Source: an uncultured Candidatus Poseidoniales archaeon
GTDB taxonomy: Archaea > Thermoplasmatota > Poseidoniia > Poseidoniales > Thalassarchaeaceae
Direction: 5' to 3'
DNA: 42,321 nt
Assembly: GCA_902593945.1 (NCBI GenBank)
Contig: CACJKA010000011.1
Coordinates: forward strand, 1 to 42,321
Within the stretch, counting starts at the first letter, position 1; each line of letters starts with the position of its first letter. The notes beneath the pieces are model-generated. The model was given only the letters and a program-made list of their open reading frames with translations, searched no databases and was not told the origin of the DNA. This document shows, piece by piece, positions 2,261 to 10,502 of this stretch. The translations under genes and the position numbers were made by a program.

Positions 2261-5200
2261 ATGAGGCGTAAACAAACAGCACTTCTTATGACTGTACTAA
2301 TTCTGTCAAGTTTAGCCTTTGTTTCTCAAACTAGACCTCAGGCACCAGTAGAAAATGTCGACCCAGGTGAAGCCGCCGGAGGAGGTCCTCCAGTAACTGA
2401 CGAAGATGGAGATAAGATTCCTGATTTCCATGAAGAAATATTATTTGGAGAAGATATTATTCTTGATTTAGGGGGTGAAATACTTAGTATCTCAGGACTT
2501 GATTCAAGGAATGGTACCGATAATATGTCAGATCATGACCGAGATGGAGCAAGTGCTCTTCTTGAGTATTGTTGGCCTTATACATTAGATAGATGTTTTA
2601 CCGATAGAGTCTCATTAACTGGCAAACCGGGTGAATTAACAGATTCAGGTATGAGGGAATGGCTCGATCCGAGAGTAGCAGATACTGACGGAGATGGTCT
2701 TCCTGATGGTTATGAAATTTATATGTGTACTGAAGGAGGTCTTGGTTATCTCAATACAACCAATGCATGGACCTGTCTTTGGTTTGACCCATTAGACCCC
2801 AGCGATATGTGGGAAGATATTGACAGATGTGCAGATTTCACATTTGGATGTGGAGATGGTTTCGACGTAGATCGTAACGGAATTATCGATGATACTGAGA
2901 AATATACTAATTCTGAGGAATATCTTTTCGGTACTCCAGATGATTGGGTGACTGAGAGAGATGGTTTGTGGTGTTTCGGTGAGATAAATCTGTTAAATTC
3001 CGAATCATGTCAAAAATCTGTAGAAAGACAAACTGGGGACGGATGGCTAGGTAGCGACCCGACAGAATCAGATTCAGACTATTATTCATGGGCTGAAATT
3101 ATTTCTGTTGGATTAGCTGTTCCTGGAGATGGCATTCCAGACGGTTGGGAAGTACATTATGGGCTTGACCCAAGAAATGCTAGCGATGCTATTCTAGATT
3201 CAGATTCAGATGGTTGGGATTTCGACAGGGACGGATATATTATTCCGGATACTTCTGTGGCTACATCTAGTTGGGGTGAATCCTTCAGTAACTATGAAGA
3301 ATATATGATATTTTTTGACCAAGGAGTATCAGTTACTCCCGGACTTAGGAGTATTGATTTGTCTAATGCTGGCGATAGTTTCTTGACATATGATCAATCA
3401 ACATCTCCGCAATTAGTTGATGCTAGTGTACACACTATTATTTCTGATAATCAAAGAGACCGATTAATTGTAGGTTCAGAATTTGGAATAACCATATTGG
3501 ATCCGTTTAATCAGGTATCTACAATGATAGAACTCCCCTCTGGGGTGGTGTTGAATTCAATGATGGATTGGTCGAATGATGAAGGCGAATACTTGGTTTT
3601 ATTAACTAATCAAGGAATATCAATAGCCGAAATAATTAATGGAATCCCACAAATAGACTCATCAACTTTTGAGGACTCGGAATCCAGTATCTCCGTGAGC
3701 TCAATTGATGAGATGGTTGTGCTTAAAACAGGTAATGGAAATTTAGATTTAATGCTCTTCTCAGGGAAAGATGTATGGACTACATCAATATCTGGAAGTA
3801 CTATAAATTCTCTAACTTATCTTCAACCCATATCGGAAATGTTGTCTATTAATGCTGCCAATGTAAACACTGCTTTACATATGGAGATGGATGGCCGCGG
3901 ACCTTTACTTTTGATAGGAACAGATGGAGGATTAATTGCCTGGAATACCACAGATGGTTCTGACTCTGTAGGTACTCCTTGGTGGGTTTTCAATAGGGTA
4001 AATGCAGAAGAATTTGTACAAAAAGCAGATTTACTTAATGTTTCAAAATCTGCCATAGTGAATATTTTGGAACCAGCAGGTCCTAAGGATTCTTCTGGTA
4101 ATTTCGAATTAATTACTGGTGCATGGATTGGTACAGCAGGAGGCTTACATTTGATAGATACTGATAAATTGATATCAATGCCTGTAACAGCCTTTAATTC
4201 TGAGAGAATGTGGAATCAAGAAAATTGGTTATCTGGTTCAAACGATGTTCATTCAATTCATATATTTGAAAATCAAGTAATAGTTGGTTCTAAAGATGGA
4301 ACTTGGGTTCTAGAGGGGGGTTATCAAGGAGTAACTGGAATGTCTGAAAATCAAACATTCCTTCCTGGATTAGTAACTTCATTAACAACATTAGAATCAT
4401 CTGAATCAATAATAATGTTCGCAGGTATTTCTCCTGGAAATTATATGAATATAATGCCGATTGATCCCCAATCAACTGATTCAGACCTTGATGGGATGCC
4501 CGATGGCTGGGAATTTATTCATGGTCTTGACCCAACTGATCCTTATGATAGAGATAGGGATGCCGATGCGGATGGAATTCTATACAATTCCGAGTTTGGA
4601 GAAGGTATTGATAGAAGTTGGACTAATTTGGATGAATTCCGATTTATCACCAATTCAGAAAATGGTTTTAATGGAACAGATCCAAGAAATATAGATACTG
4701 ATGGAGATGGGCTAACTGATGGCGAAGAATATTGGGGTTGGTTCACAGAGTCTACTAATTTTGATTGTCATTATCTAAATCAAGAGTATATTTGTGATGA
4801 AGTAACCGGTTCTGAAGCGTTATCTGTTCATCTTGAAGGATGGTTAGGTTCTGGTGCAGGCGGAGGGACTGACGGGCCCACTGATCCTACCGATACAGAC
4901 TCAGATGGCGATGGGATGCCTGATGGTTGGGAAATTGAAAACCGAAGATGGATTGGAGACGTATACAATGGAGGAAATCTATGGACATTAGATCCTAGAG
5001 ATCCTAATGACGCTCAAGAAGATGCAGATAATGATGGTCTTTCTAACCTCTGTGAGTACAAATGGGCTAATCTACTACAATCTGTGATTAATGAAGGGCT
5101 TCCTTCACACGGCGAAAGCTCTGATGCTGCCTTAAATTGGACTGTAACCGACCCAAATAATGTTGATTCAGATGGAGACACATTACCAGATGGTTGGGAG

Positions 5201-7981
5201 GCCAGGTATTCTTGTTCATGGTCTGCTGATGCCGCAGGAATAAATCCCTTAAATGGCTCTGATGCATTGAATAATCCAGACGGCGATGGGTACGACATTA
5301 ATCACAATGGTATTTTGGAATTAGAAGAAAGTCTAGTTAATTGGATGGAATTCCACTGGAAATCTGAGATTATTTTTTCCGACAGTACTGATAATGACAT
5401 TCCATTCCCTGATAATTTCACTACTCTTTTGTTCAATGATACATGGGAAAATTTTGCAGGCGGTTCATTCGGTAAGTATGCTAGCAATAATTACAATAGT
5501 TTAATCAATGCAACTTCTGAAATAGACATTGGTTCAGGAAATCCACTAAGTTCAGATTCGGATCTAGATGGAATGCCCGACGGTTGGGAGTTTTACCATG
5601 CTAGATGGAGTCTTTTCGATAGCTCTTGGACTCTAAACCCAGTTAATGAAAATGACCGTATAGGTGATCCCGATGGTGATGGGATGAATAACTGGGAAGA
5701 ATATAATGTAATATCTAGTAATTTATCAGAGATAGACTCTCTAATTACAGTTCCTCAATTTTATCTTCTTTACTTTGGCGGCGAATACCTCCCTAATCCC
5801 TGGTTATCTGCAGAGTCATCCAGTTCTTTCGGTTCATTTTTAACTCCTGAACAAATTAATCTTACAGGTTTAACTGCTGACCCTAATAATCCCGATACTG
5901 ACTCCGATGGTTTACTTGATGGGATGGAATTAATTTTCACGAGATGGAATTCAACTGATGAGGTTTGGACACTTAATCCTCTTGTGCCAAATGACGGAAA
6001 TTATGACTCAGATAATGATGGTATTTCCGATCAGATTGAACTCAACCTTACTCTAAATAATCCGTTCAATGGAGGGCTATCTCCTCCCGATGCCCCTCGA
6101 CTATGGGAAGAGGCAGAGTATCTTGACCCTTCAGAGGCTGAAAATAGAGTATACAGGATTCTTTTCAATAAAGAAGGAAGAGCCCAACTTGCACTTCAGC
6201 AGTTTTCTGATTGGCAAGGCGGAGCCACAGCAAAACCTCTACTAAAAGCACTATTTGGAGTGTCCGATCCTACGGCTGAAGATACTGACAGAGATGGGAT
6301 GAGTGATGGTTACGAATATTGGTTTACTGAATGGAATCTTGAAGATAATCGCTGGGAGATGAATCTTCTTACAGGAACTGATATTTCTGTTGATAGTGAT
6401 GAAGACTCATATGATTGTAATGGTGATGGGATAATTTCTCCATCTGAATCTTATGACAACTTGGCAGAGTTTGAATCAAGAATATATGGTAAAAAATTAG
6501 CAATTGATAGTATTCCAAATGGGACAGGTCTAGTTTCATACGGTGCAGATACTGTAAATGCATACATGGATGAAAAGTCTATGAGCTATTCTTTGGCATT
6601 AAGTCAATTATATGTCACATTCTCTACGAAATCTACCTCTTCATTTGAGAAATCAGGATTAATTAATCAGATTAATCCGGATAACTTCAATATTAGTTTA
6701 GCAGGAATTAGTGACCCCACCGATTCTGATTCAGACAGAGATGGAATGCCAGATGGTTGGGAATATTGTTTCTCAATATATGGTCAATACCTACCAGTTA
6801 ACGACTATAGATGGTCAATGAACCCAATTAATCCACTTGATGTAAATTATGATCCTGATGAAGATGGTTGGTATGATCGACAGTGGGAAGATGTACCAGC
6901 AACTCAAGGGAAATGGGAAAACAGACAATTTTCATCAGCAAACATCGAAGACCAAATTAGTAATGGCGTTCTTCCTTTATTCTTTACTAATATTATGGAA
7001 TATGAAAATGGAACAATGCCATTAGATTCAGATTCAGATGATGATTCCATGGTGATGAAACCTGTATTCACTAACGGTGAAGTTACAGACTATGTCCAAG
7101 ATATGAATTTAAGTGATGGGCGAGAAGTGTTCAAGTATGGTACAAATCCTTTAGACAATGATACTGATGGTGATATGATGCCTGACTTCTATGAATATTA
7201 TAGAGGTTGGAACGAAACTAATGATAATTGGTCCTCTTATCTTAAGATAGAAGTTCAATGGGAGCAAATATCTGCAAATAATCTCAAACCAGTCCAGATA
7301 TCTAATAATGTCATTTCACGTCCTGTTTTAAATTGGGTCTGGTTTACTCATGATGCAACAGATGCTAATGATGCAGGCCAAGATGCTGATAAGGATGGAG
7401 GATGGGACTGCTCAGGAGGAAATTGTGTGTACCAACCTTACAATAATTTCCAAGAATATTATGGTGTAGTAAATGCATCTCTATCTTCTCCAACCTTAGT
7501 GCGTCAGTCTTTATTGAATGATTGTTCTGGCAATTATGTAGAGGAATGGTGGCAACTAAGAGAGTCTTTGTTAGGTACATGCTCAGGTTCATCTGCTCTG
7601 ACATCAAATTATTTTAGAATGTATAAAATCAATAACAATGATCAACTATTTGCATTAATTGTTGATGATAATGATTTGGATTACCAATATTTAGACACTA
7701 CTGATGACGTGACTTTGTGCAATGGTGAATGGGCAGACTCTTACCATAGATTTGCAGGTGATCAATATCATTTCCCCAATATTGGTCTAGGGGAATATGT
7801 ATTTGGTTGGTGGGTTTTAGATATTGACGGTGATCAGATTGCCGATGGAACCGATCCAACAAAATGGGATACAGATGGAGACTGGTTAAACGACTTCTTT
7901 GAAATAGAAGATGATATGTTGGATGGAGTACGTGGAAATAGTGCTTCACCAATAAGATATGATGATAGAACTACTGCTTGA
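2261..7981 (+). CDS. Giant secreted protein with thrombospondin-type-3-like calcium-binding repeats and a central propeller-like region
   Basis: This 1906-residue protein starts with a Sec signal peptide (Arg-Arg-Lys, then a hydrophobic stretch to about residue 22). It contains at least a dozen acidic motifs of the form D-x-D-x-DG-(M/L)-PDGWE, near residues 139, 290, 739, 810, 880, 968, 1098, 1211, 1340, 1490, 1633 and 1868. These resemble TSP3/EF-like calcium loops. From about residue 880 they form modules of roughly 110-150 residues, each with a second acidic loop after a W-(T/S)-(L/M)-(N/D)-P segment. Residues ~370-720 lack the repeats and show beta-rich segments with GTDGG and IGTAGG turns, like a beta-propeller. 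There is no C-terminal membrane anchor, so it is probably released or held non-covalently on the surface, perhaps by calcium. Cysteines are few and scattered. Specific function is unknown; adhesion or a structural surface role is inference. Confidence 0.85.
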   Translation: MRRKQTALLMTVLILSSLAFVSQTRPQAPVENVDPGEAAGGGPPVTDEDGDKIPDFHEEILFGEDIILDLGGEILSISGLDSRNGTDNMSDHDRDGASALLEYCWPYTLDRCFTDRVSLTGKPGELTDSGMREWLDPRVADTDGDGLPDGYEIYMCTEGGLGYLNTTNAWTCLWFDPLDPSDMWEDIDRCADFTFGCGDGFDVDRNGIIDDTEKYTNSEEYLFGTPDDWVTERDGLWCFGEINLLNSESCQKSVERQTGDGWLGSDPTESDSDYYSWAEIISVGLAVPGDGIPDGWEVHYGLDPRNASDAILDSDSDGWDFDRDGYIIPDTSVATSSWGESFSNYEEYMIFFDQGVSVTPGLRSIDLSNAGDSFLTYDQSTSPQLVDASVHTIISDNQRDRLIVGSEFGITILDPFNQVSTMIELPSGVVLNSMMDWSNDEGEYLVLLTNQGISIAEIINGIPQIDSSTFEDSESSISVSSIDEMVVLKTGNGNLDLMLFSGKDVWTTSISGSTINSLTYLQPISEMLSINAANVNTALHMEMDGRGPLLLIGTDGGLIAWNTTDGSDSVGTPWWVFNRVNAEEFVQKADLLNVSKSAIVNILEPAGPKDSSGNFELITGAWIGTAGGLHLIDTDKLISMPVTAFNSERMWNQENWLSGSNDVHSIHIFENQVIVGSKDGTWVLEGGYQGVTGMSENQTFLPGLVTSLTTLESSESIIMFAGISPGNYMNIMPIDPQSTDSDLDGMPDGWEFIHGLDPTDPYDRDRDADADGILYNSEFGEGIDRSWTNLDEFRFITNSENGFNGTDPRNIDTDGDGLTDGEEYWGWFTESTNFDCHYLNQEYICDEVTGSEALSVHLEGWLGSGAGGGTDGPTDPTDTDSDGDGMPDGWEIENRRWIGDVYNGGNLWTLDPRDPNDAQEDADNDGLSNLCEYKWANLLQSVINEGLPSHGESSDAALNWTVTDPNNVDSDGDTLPDGWEARYSCSWSADAAGINPLNGSDALNNPDGDGYDINHNGILELEESLVNWMEFHWKSEIIFSDSTDNDIPFPDNFTTLLFNDTWENFAGGSFGKYASNNYNSLINATSEIDIGSGNPLSSDSDLDGMPDGWEFYHARWSLFDSSWTLNPVNENDRIGDPDGDGMNNWEEYNVISSNLSEIDSLITVPQFYLLYFGGEYLPNPWLSAESSSSFGSFLTPEQINLTGLTADPNNPDTDSDGLLDGMELIFTRWNSTDEVWTLNPLVPNDGNYDSDNDGISDQIELNLTLNNPFNGGLSPPDAPRLWEEAEYLDPSEAENRVYRILFNKEGRAQLALQQFSDWQGGATAKPLLKALFGVSDPTAEDTDRDGMSDGYEYWFTEWNLEDNRWEMNLLTGTDISVDSDEDSYDCNGDGIISPSESYDNLAEFESRIYGKKLAIDSIPNGTGLVSYGADTVNAYMDEKSMSYSLALSQLYVTFSTKSTSSFEKSGLINQINPDNFNISLAGISDPTDSDSDRDGMPDGWEYCFSIYGQYLPVNDYRWSMNPINPLDVNYDPDEDGWYDRQWEDVPATQGKWENRQFSSANIEDQISNGVLPLFFTNIMEYENGTMPLDSDSDDDSMVMKPVFTNGEVTDYVQDMNLSDGREVFKYGTNPLDNDTDGDMMPDFYEYYRGWNETNDNWSSYLKIEVQWEQISANNLKPVQISNNVISRPVLNWVWFTHDATDANDAGQDADKDGGWDCSGGNCVYQPYNNFQEYYGVVNASLSSPTLVRQSLLNDCSGNYVEEWWQLRESLLGTCSGSSALTSNYFRMYKINNNDQLFALIVDDNDLDYQYLDTTDDVTLCNGEWADSYHRFAGDQYHFPNIGLGEYVFGWWVLDIDGDQIADGTDPTKWDTDGDWLNDFFEIEDDMLDGVRGNSASPIRYDDRTTA
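2674..7890 (+). repeat. Degenerate DxDxDG-PDGWE repeat family inside the giant protein
   Basis: Coding repeats of the form GAT-TC(A/T)-GAT-x-x-x-GAT-GGG-ATG-CC, clearest at about 4470-4510, 4895-4935, 5550-5590 and 6720-6760. Spacing is irregular before 4460 and becomes roughly 330-450 bp afterwards. The repeats are diverged at the nucleotide level, so the array is old rather than a recent duplication. Confidence 0.7.
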
Positions 7982-8493: not shown

Positions 8494-8832
8494 TTATCCA
8501 TTTTCTGCCTTTGCTACAATTCTACTTGAAACAAAAAAAGCATCCCCAATAGACCAGACATATAGTAGAAACCACAGAATAACTGTGAAAAGTAATGGCA
8601 GTTGTATCAAAAACCAGCCATTTGCTTTCTCGTGCTGCCGATTAAAATGTTGCCCTAAGAAAAGGAAAGGAATCAGAGCTAGAATAATTGTGAATAATGG
8701 TCTCAAAGTACCCCATGGTCCAACGCCTCCATTTAGTTCACTCCAAATTACTCCAATAACGCCTAATCTGCTTATTGTTTCGGCCTCTTCGTCTTCAGAT
8801 ATATTGACGACGAGTTCTTCTGCCATACCCAT
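8494..8832 (-). CDS. Small two-helix membrane protein, hypothetical
   Basis: This 112-residue protein has an acidic soluble N-terminus (~50 residues) and two transmembrane helices, around residues 47-60 (LFTIILALIPFLFLG) and 76-95 (LLFTVILWFLLYVWSIG). A short basic/polar linker between them (QHFNRQHEKANGW) suggests both termini share one side of the membrane. I do not recognise the family. Met1 (8832) and Met3 (8826) are both plausible starts. A similar-length frame on the opposite strand is a shadow. It is divergent from the Pcp-Nudix gene. Confidence 0.6.
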   Translation of the reverse strand: MGMAEELVVNISEDEEAETISRLGVIGVIWSELNGGVGPWGTLRPLFTIILALIPFLFLGQHFNRQHEKANGWFLIQLPLLFTVILWFLLYVWSIGDAFFVSSRIVAKAENG

Positions 8833-8910
8833 GCTAATAATAACTGAATGATGAAGATAGCGATTACTTGTATGGAAAACACCAACTATCTCCTACTTAT
8901 GCAAATTACC

Positions 8911-9909
8911 ATGGGTAGTCCAAGTGTGTTAATTACAGGTTATCCAAAATTCTCAAATTTTGATTACAATGTTTCTGAAAAGATATTATCAATTATCAAA
9001 GAAATAGATTTCTCGAATATAAAAATCTCTACTGAATTACTATCGGTTGATGAAGATGGTAGTGACTTAGTTGCAAAAAGAATCAATCTTGGGGAAACTT
9101 TTGATACAATAATACATTTAGGATTTTCATCCAAATCGAAAATAATTAGTCTTGAGAAATATGCATACAATGAGTATAGGATGTCACAACCCGATAATTC
9201 TGGACGTTGTATATCTAATGGCGAAATAATTCAGGGTAAGTTAGAAAGATACCATACAAATGTAAATGAAATTGTAATTAATGAGGAGTTCAAAGGAGAA
9301 TCTCGTGTAGAATGGAGTGTTAATCCCGGACGTTTTGTTTGTAACGAAACGTACTTCAAAACTCTAAATATGATTGATGATAATCAGGTTAATGATAAAA
9401 TAAAGGTTATTTTTGTTCATTTACCTCCTGAAGATATTATGAATCTCTCCGAACAGACTGAAATTATTGAGCGTTTAATTAGATGTATCTCTAAACCATA
9501 TCTTGAGGTAGTAGGGGGTCTAATATTTGATAAAAATCATAGAATTCTATCTTGTAGGCGCCCTAAAGAGAAATCATGGTCCTCCTGGTGGGAGTTTCCA
9601 GGAGGTAAAGTAGAATTGGGCGAAACTCCTTATCATGCCTTATCTAGAGAACTAAAAGAAGAACTTTCATTAAATATATTGCCATCACAAATTATTGCAG
9701 AGCAATTTTTTGATTATGAAGACAAATATGTGAAATTAATGGTTTTGAATTGTGGAATAATCGAAGAGGATAAAATAGAGTTACTTGAACACGATCAAAT
9801 TAAATGGCTACATAAACATGAATTATTTGAAGTCAATTGGTTGCCTGCCGATTTACCAATTATAGAAAAGTGGTATGTTGAAGGAATTCCTAGTCCTCAT
9901 CAATATTAA
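8911..9909 (+). CDS. Pyroglutamyl-peptidase I-like domain fused to a MutT-type Nudix domain
   Basis: The frame is open from 8848, but the ATG at 8911 gives a 332-residue protein whose N-terminus (MGSPSVLITGYPKF) matches the usual start of pyrrolidone-carboxylate peptidase. With this start, the C15 catalytic residues fall at E82 (SLEKYAYN), C144 (PGRFVCNETYF) and H170 (VIFVHLPPE), almost the classical family numbering (E81, C144, H168). An arginine at 90 followed by QPDN is also in place. Residues ~198-320 form a Nudix hydrolase: WWEFPGGKVELGE, then a Nudix box with G232, E238, R246, E247, E250 and E251, where only the late Gly is replaced by Ser253. WEFPGGKVE is typical of MutT 8-oxo-dGTP pyrophosphatases. 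The first half would remove N-terminal pyroglutamate and the second would clean damaged nucleotides. The 3' end overlaps UPF0201 by 20 bp. Confidence 0.8.
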   Translation: MGSPSVLITGYPKFSNFDYNVSEKILSIIKEIDFSNIKISTELLSVDEDGSDLVAKRINLGETFDTIIHLGFSSKSKIISLEKYAYNEYRMSQPDNSGRCISNGEIIQGKLERYHTNVNEIVINEEFKGESRVEWSVNPGRFVCNETYFKTLNMIDDNQVNDKIKVIFVHLPPEDIMNLSEQTEIIERLIRCISKPYLEVVGGLIFDKNHRILSCRRPKEKSWSSWWEFPGGKVELGETPYHALSRELKEELSLNILPSQIIAEQFFDYEDKYVKLMVLNCGIIEEDKIELLEHDQIKWLHKHELFEVNWLPADLPIIEKWYVEGIPSPHQY

Positions 9910-10408
9910 TCGTTGGATTTCCTCTTTTGTCAAACCATTCAGTAGGCTCGCCATCGCTTCTCATTGCCAAATCATCTCTTGAATATCTTGGTATTTCATT
10001 CCTTCCTTCATGCCAAGTTTGTTGTTCCAACCATATATCTATATCTTCGCCAGAGATATTGATTTTAATCATCCCACCGAGTGTCATCTCATCTACAACG
10101 AAGGAGACTTTCCCTGCGATGGCGGCTTGCCTTGAGATGTAAAAGTAGGTTGAACCAGAGTCAAAATTTAGAGTCATTACATCTAATGCAGTATCTAATA
10201 TTCTTTGTATTCTAATTTGATTTAATAGATATTCTAGATTGGATGATTCTCCAAAGATTTCTTCTTCTACATTTTTCGTTGGAAATTCTCCTTTTCCAGA
10301 AATATTTTTTATTTCACAATCCGGAAAAAACATCTTTATTGATTGAATAATCTTCTCTGGGTCTTCATATGGTTGGACTATCGAAGAGATTCTAATGACA
10401 GGTTCCAT
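9890..10408 (-). CDS. UPF0201 family protein (archaeal, probable RNA-associated)
   Basis: This ~172-residue protein matches the archaeal UPF0201 pattern. It has an N-terminal EDPEKIIQSIKMFFPDCEI segment, a central LLNQIRIQRILDTALDVM helix, then SRQAAIAGKVSFV, and LGGMIKINI before the end of the fold. The C-terminus (~25 residues past the DIWLEQQT segment) is longer than usual. The family is nearly universal in archaea and its exact role is not established. The frame extends to 10423, but Met6 (10408) starts right at the conserved domain and is preferred. It is convergent with the Pcp-Nudix gene, overlapping it by 20 bp. Confidence 0.8.
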   Translation of the reverse strand: MEPVIRISSIVQPYEDPEKIIQSIKMFFPDCEIKNISGKGEFPTKNVEEEIFGESSNLEYLLNQIRIQRILDTALDVMTLNFDSGSTYFYISRQAAIAGKVSFVVDEMTLGGMIKINISGEDIDIWLEQQTWHEGRNEIPRYSRDDLAMRSDGEPTEWFDKRGNPTINIDED

Positions 10409-10502
10409 GATTGTCCGCGGCATTCACCGGTCATGAGTTCTCTGTTTGCATAATCTCCCAAAGACACGAATGATTGAAATTGAATAGTTGCTGAGATGTG
10501 TT

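Follow-up and report, generated by a model that had tools for sequence, protein, structure and literature searches.

A gene in the window (the whole 42,321-nucleotide stretch of Candidatus Poseidoniales DNA analysed here) joins a pyroglutamyl-peptidase I (C15) domain to a MutT/NudG-type Nudix hydrolase domain in a single polypeptide. The fusion is best explained, we propose, as ancient, specific to this order and vertically inherited at one chromosomal place, and with a probability of about 0.55 we regard its product as a bifunctional house-cleaning enzyme of the order, with its two jobs loosely coupled. The architecture appears to be a new and unreported one built of two known enzyme families: no C15-Nudix fusion was found in the open-access papers searched, where the single paper to name both enzymes is a proteomic study of a different organism, and the main text of a survey of archaeal fusions (PMC11237513) makes no mention of one.

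Reading frame and domain architecture

The fused gene and the features recognised within it are as follows.

8911..9909, forward strand: whole fused gene, a single uninterrupted open reading frame of 332 amino acids plus the stop codon
8923..9444, forward strand: Peptidase_C15 (pyroglutamyl-peptidase I) domain, residues 5–178, from PF01470, PDB entries 6ltq, 2ebj, 1iof and 1a2z, and the fold
9154..9156, forward strand: catalytic Glu82, invariant
9340..9342, forward strand: catalytic Cys144, invariant, within the order-specific motif CNET
9418..9420, forward strand: catalytic His170, invariant
9445..9495, forward strand: joining helix, residues 179–195, from the model and the fixed spacing, with no flexible linker
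9496..9885, forward strand: MutT/NudG-type Nudix domain, residues 196–325, from Pfam, NCBIfam, PDB relatives and the fold
9604..9672, forward strand: Nudix box, residues 232–254, with Ser for the last Gly, from the sequence and invariant columns

In Pfam, Peptidase_C15 (PF01470) matches residues 6–175 with 39.3 bits against a cut-off of 22.7, NUDIX matches residues 199–311 with 59.7 bits against a cut-off of 21.1, and both domains are present in 38/38 homologous fusions (E <= 0.001). The initial annotation had described a peptidase and a Nudix hydrolase in one chain, and the reading frame, the Pfam domains and the copies found across the order bear this out. Its choice of catalytic residues also holds: Glu82, Cys144 and His170 are each invariant in 50/50 sequences from the order and in 18/18 canonical ones. 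Position 8911 is the likely start of the gene, because the frame just upstream is closed or unconserved among relatives; a second in-frame ATG lies upstream at 8848, and for the same reason it is an unlikely start. A search of Rfam around the fused gene gave no match.

The joint between the two halves

The AlphaFold model, computed from a 38-sequence alignment, is compact and two-domain, with a mean pLDDT of 95.4 and a pTM of 0.88, and a structure search with it against the PDB returns pyroglutamyl peptidases and MutT/NudG proteins. In the model the C-terminal helix of the peptidase (residues 179–194) leads directly into the first Nudix strand (residues 197–206). The distance from His170 to V200 is 31 residues in 31/38 sequences and 29–34 across all of them, so that the linker, whose conservation had been suggested as a check, proves to be near-fixed in length.

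Distribution of the fusion

The genome from which the window comes is 1.2 Mb in size and 65% complete. The order as searched consists of two families (f1 and f2) and 21 genera, which is the make-up described for Ca. Poseidoniales, or Marine Group II (PMC6461757); we infer that f1, with the smaller genomes, is Ca. Thalassarchaeaceae and f2 Ca. Poseidoniaceae. Intact fusions are present in 10/12 other genomes of the genus, at 44–81% identity, with close copies in the metagenome-assembled genomes Euryarchaeota archaeon UBA439, UBA605 and UBA257 and Candidatus Thermoplasmatota SFB_27D_50_5. In a further genome, UBA89 (locus L072), both halves are present with an N-filled gap between them at about 5540–5915; an insertion was considered for this apparent split and rejected, the break being a scaffold gap. 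The genus member G012, a 52% complete genome, gave no match to the fusion. Among 99 genomes of the family, the fusion is contiguous in 68 and broken by contig ends or N-gaps in four, the peptidase stands alone in nine, and neither is found in 18. Most genomes of the second family also carry the fusion.

The search for the fusion covered part of the phylum by sampling, together with plasmid, phage and viral-contig collections, and GTDB genomes for near relatives only. In the scanned sample of the rest of the phylum there was no fused protein, and C15 and Nudix matches lay at separate places. No place in the plasmid and phage collections covered 80% of the query, the matches listed being to the Nudix half only, and the fusion was not found in viral contigs.

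A sequencing or assembly artefact fusing two adjacent genes is a negligible prospect. Nothing found speaks for it, the only irregular copies being that of UBA89, with its N-gap, and one other locus, L036, with an internal stop. Dozens of genomes assembled independently carry the fusion intact at the identical place. These copies, with identities of up to 81% in separate assemblies and a spread across the order, rule out both chance and assembly error. The fear voiced in the initial annotation, of a fusion that occurs only here through a sequencing error, is therefore unfounded, and the search for the same domain order elsewhere, which it had proposed, finds the fusion throughout the order and in both families. 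Among the loci read, the only true internal stop is that in L036 (genome G040), a TAA at residue 266 in the Nudix half, possibly the sign of a recent pseudogene or a sequencing error; the stop in L058 coincides with the natural C-terminus, and other flagged loci that were read, such as L056 and L057, are intact.

Gene neighbourhood

Two neighbours flank the fused gene.

8494..8832, reverse strand: upstream neighbour, divergent, a small protein with hydrophobic segments (cluster c3, 31/34 loci), with no Pfam match above the cut-off
9890..10423, reverse strand: downstream neighbour, convergent, an RNA-binding protein, PF01877 (cluster c4, 31/34 loci)

The 3' ends of the PF01877 gene and the fused gene overlap by about 20 bases, and this neighbour is conserved across the order together with its convergent orientation. 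Gene order is near-constant across the loci examined and runs from a 156-aa protein through the divergent membrane-like protein, the fusion and PF01877 to a zinc-ribbon protein and DnaJ. The fused gene stands alone between its divergent and convergent neighbours, with no operon partner, and operon context is thus of no help as a clue to function. Farther upstream, at 2261–7981 of the window, lies a gene for a 1906-aa protein with repeated Asp-rich motifs like DTDGDGLPDGWE that resemble thrombospondin type 3 or calcium-binding repeats; its family (cluster c7) is found upstream of the fusion locus in many genomes.

The peptidase half

The best structural matches of the model in the PDB are pyrrolidone carboxyl peptidases, with E about 1e-16 and a TM-score by target of about 0.8. 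With pyroglutamyl peptidase I of MEROPS family C15 (6ltq, 1iof, 1a2z, 1aug and 5z48) the fusion has in common the fold, the Glu-Cys-His triad and the TG[FY]xxF and CN motifs; it differs from the C15 structures in its extra C-terminal Nudix domain, at about 16–26% identity. The best three NCBIfam matches to pyroglutamyl-peptidase I score 37.0–47.0 bits, short of cut-offs of 199–274, so that by profile the peptidase half is a member of the C15 domain family below the equivalog level. Against the family profile the peptidases of the order score 25–79 bits, compared with 111–179 for canonical ones. Each order genome examined has one C15 peptidase, and in the tree the peptidase halves of the order form one clade (SH-aLRT 99) separate from the other Thermoplasmatota peptidases.

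The pocket was compared by sequence; 5z48 is an example of a C15 structure containing pyroglutamate. G50, S97, R99, E146, T147, T151 and L171 are near-fixed in the order and not in the canonical set, and the pair E146-T147 immediately follows C144-N145; its position beside the active Cys makes an altered specificity possible. Together with the low profile scores, this signature suggests that the substrate may have shifted from the canonical one.

The Nudix half

The Nudix box reads G232-x5-E238-x7-R246-E247-L-x-E250-E251-x-S253-L. It matches the consensus GX5EX7REUXEEXGU at all residues except the last Gly, here Ser253, where many relatives have Gly; the description of the box as near-complete in the initial annotation was thus accurate. 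E238, R246, E247, E250 and E251 are invariant in the alignment of the order. The Ser in place of the last Gly in the window copy would favour the idea that one half is no longer catalytic and acts in regulation or oligomerisation instead, but throughout the order no catalytic residue of either half varies, and we consider this very unlikely.

The PDB relatives of this half are MutT/NudG-type hydrolases (5x1x, 3r03, 3hhj and 2rrk). Its best NCBIfam match is PRK08999, with 100 bits over positions 4–126 of 315; NudG (PRK10546) follows with 73.7 bits, short of the equivalog cut-off of 156, and then MutT (TIGR00586) with 68.8 bits, short of 97.9. No match above the cut-off of TIGR00586, the MutT 8-oxo-dGTP diphosphatase, was found in the 30 order genomes searched. 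The near-invariant D314 aligns with the PAD-motif aspartate of NudG (2rrk), 5x1x and 3r03, whereas the alignment to MutT (1mut) ends before it. The corresponding position in E. coli MutT is presumably Asn119, which takes part in base recognition. The label MutT-like stands, with the qualification that D314 appears closer to the NudG/Orf135 type than to MutT proper.

The fusion has the Nudix fold and box in common with MutT and NudG (Orf135, CTP pyrophosphohydrolase; 5x1x, 3r03, 2rrk and 1mut), and the C-terminal PAD motif with 5x1x, 3r03 and NudG, but it lies under every NCBIfam equivalog cut-off (68.8–100 against 97.9–245 bits) and, unlike these enzymes, carries its Nudix domain behind a cysteine peptidase. 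On these sequence comparisons the Nudix half appears nearest in kind to NudG and is not an established member. PRK08999-type hydrolases also have a MutT-like domain joined to another enzyme; there, however, the Nudix domain is N-terminal and the partner, which we take to be a thiamine-phosphate-synthase-like domain, is no peptidase, whereas in the fusion the Nudix domain is C-terminal and the partner a peptidase. As NudG acts on 5-methyl-dCTP and 2-OH-dATP (PMC5158307), oxidised or modified (d)NTPs are by analogy the likeliest substrates of the Nudix half.

The Nudix tree does not resolve the fused halves as one clade, and one bacterial sequence falls inside them with weak support. Since this tree is poorly resolved, the case for one fusion event draws chiefly on the peptidase phylogeny and on synteny.

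Losses of the Nudix half and of the whole gene

In genus g7 and in part of g3 the peptidase occurs alone, with its triad kept and no remnant of the Nudix domain, and in most of these loci the next gene lies 2–12 bases away. The Nudix-less forms nest within the fused ones in the tree, so the Nudix half has been lost at least twice. The whole fused gene is cleanly missing from between its usual neighbours at three g6 loci (L122–L124) and three g7 loci (L125–L127), and the downstream neighbour is still present in the seven g6 genomes searched. No Nudix domain kept after loss of the peptidase was seen among the loci compared, and no fission into two adjacent genes among the family and order genomes searched. 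Loss of the Nudix half without the peptidase, with the reverse not seen in these loci, suggests a core role for the peptidase and an accessory one for the Nudix half. Because the peptidase persists after the Nudix half has gone, an obligatory two-step pathway is argued against.

These losses bear as well on the possibility that the fusion was neutral or accidental, with both enzymes active and their joining of no benefit beyond co-expression. This reading would account for the repeated loss of the Nudix half with retention of the peptidase, for the clean absence of the whole gene from the sampled g6 genomes and some of g7, for the presence of further small Nudix proteins in the same genomes, and for the lack of an operon partner between divergent and convergent neighbours. 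Against it, the fusion is retained in nearly all other genera with its joint of near-fixed length, and neither fission nor loss of the peptidase only has been seen; we regard a neutral fusion as possible and rather doubtful. Retention across the order hints at some advantage that co-expression by itself may fail to explain, a point that also weighs against the reading preferred below.

The fate of pyroglutamate

With positive controls working, a 5-oxoprolinase of the PxpA type was found in 0/28 order genomes and one of the OplAH type (Hydantoinase_B) in 1/28. The general absence of the known 5-oxoprolinases weighs against the preferred reading: if pyroglutamate is released, it must be exported, be tolerated or be handled by an enzyme of unrecognised type.

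The initial annotation had suggested that the peptidase half might act on a different cyclic amide, for instance 5-oxoproline-like or damaged-base products. In a one-pathway form of this idea, the peptidase would open a cyclic amide in a damaged nucleotide or a cofactor fragment and the Nudix half would act on the diphosphate of the same compound. The order-specific G50, S97, R99, E146 and T147, by which the fusion differs from canonical C15 enzymes, the weak matches to canonical peptidase models and the general absence of known 5-oxoprolinases could be read in its favour. The idea has no direct support, however, since in its triad, FVCN motif and fold this half matches pyroglutamyl peptidase I, and the peptidase has outlived the Nudix half at least twice; we judge a shared pathway improbable. 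Equally improbable, though it would fit both the active-site residues peculiar to the order and the near-absence of known 5-oxoprolinases, is a lactam other than peptidyl pyroglutamate as the new substrate of the C15 peptidase. Such a lactam might belong to a metabolite that is nucleotide-linked or damaged by oxidation, and from which the Nudix half would cleave the pyrophosphate. Were this true, the fusion would be a previously unrecognised damage-repair enzyme.

Proposed origin and function

The reading that we prefer remains a bifunctional enzyme with two loosely coupled jobs. Early in Ca. Poseidoniales, a single-copy pyroglutamyl peptidase would have been joined through its C-terminal helix to a MutT/NudG-type Nudix hydrolase, and the fusion would then have been kept at one chromosomal place by vertical inheritance. 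Published genome studies portray Marine Group II archaea as living on proteins and peptides (PMC6336850, PMC6864105), and the N-terminal half may remove pyroglutamate from peptides taken up or made by these protein-eating archaea, while the C-terminal half may hydrolyse non-canonical or oxidised (d)NTPs. The benefit of joining them would be equal expression rather than substrate channelling, hence the loose coupling of the two jobs.

By analogy, the closest architecture already described is that of the plant NUDIX-dipeptidyl peptidase III, to which a dual activity has been attributed (Karacic et al. 2017, as cited in PMC5389931 and PMC5805324); the latter also reports that plant dipeptidyl peptidase III members carry a Nudix motif. 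Both proteins combine a Nudix domain and an exopeptidase acting at the N-terminus in one chain. The plant enzyme, however, is a zinc peptidase of family M49 with its Nudix domain N-terminal and belongs to the plant lineage, whereas the archaeal fusion is a C15 peptidase with its Nudix domain C-terminal, and the two are not homologous as fusions.

The lineages without the Nudix half (g7 and part of g3) or without the whole gene offer a natural experiment on the coupling of the two activities. A conserved pyroglutamyl peptidase in genomes that mostly lack 5-oxoprolinases raises a testable question as to how, or whether, pyroglutamate is recycled. Since the fusion has been retained across a whole order of archaea abundant in the surface ocean, producing the peptide and nucleotide clean-up enzymes together would seem to have been worthwhile there.
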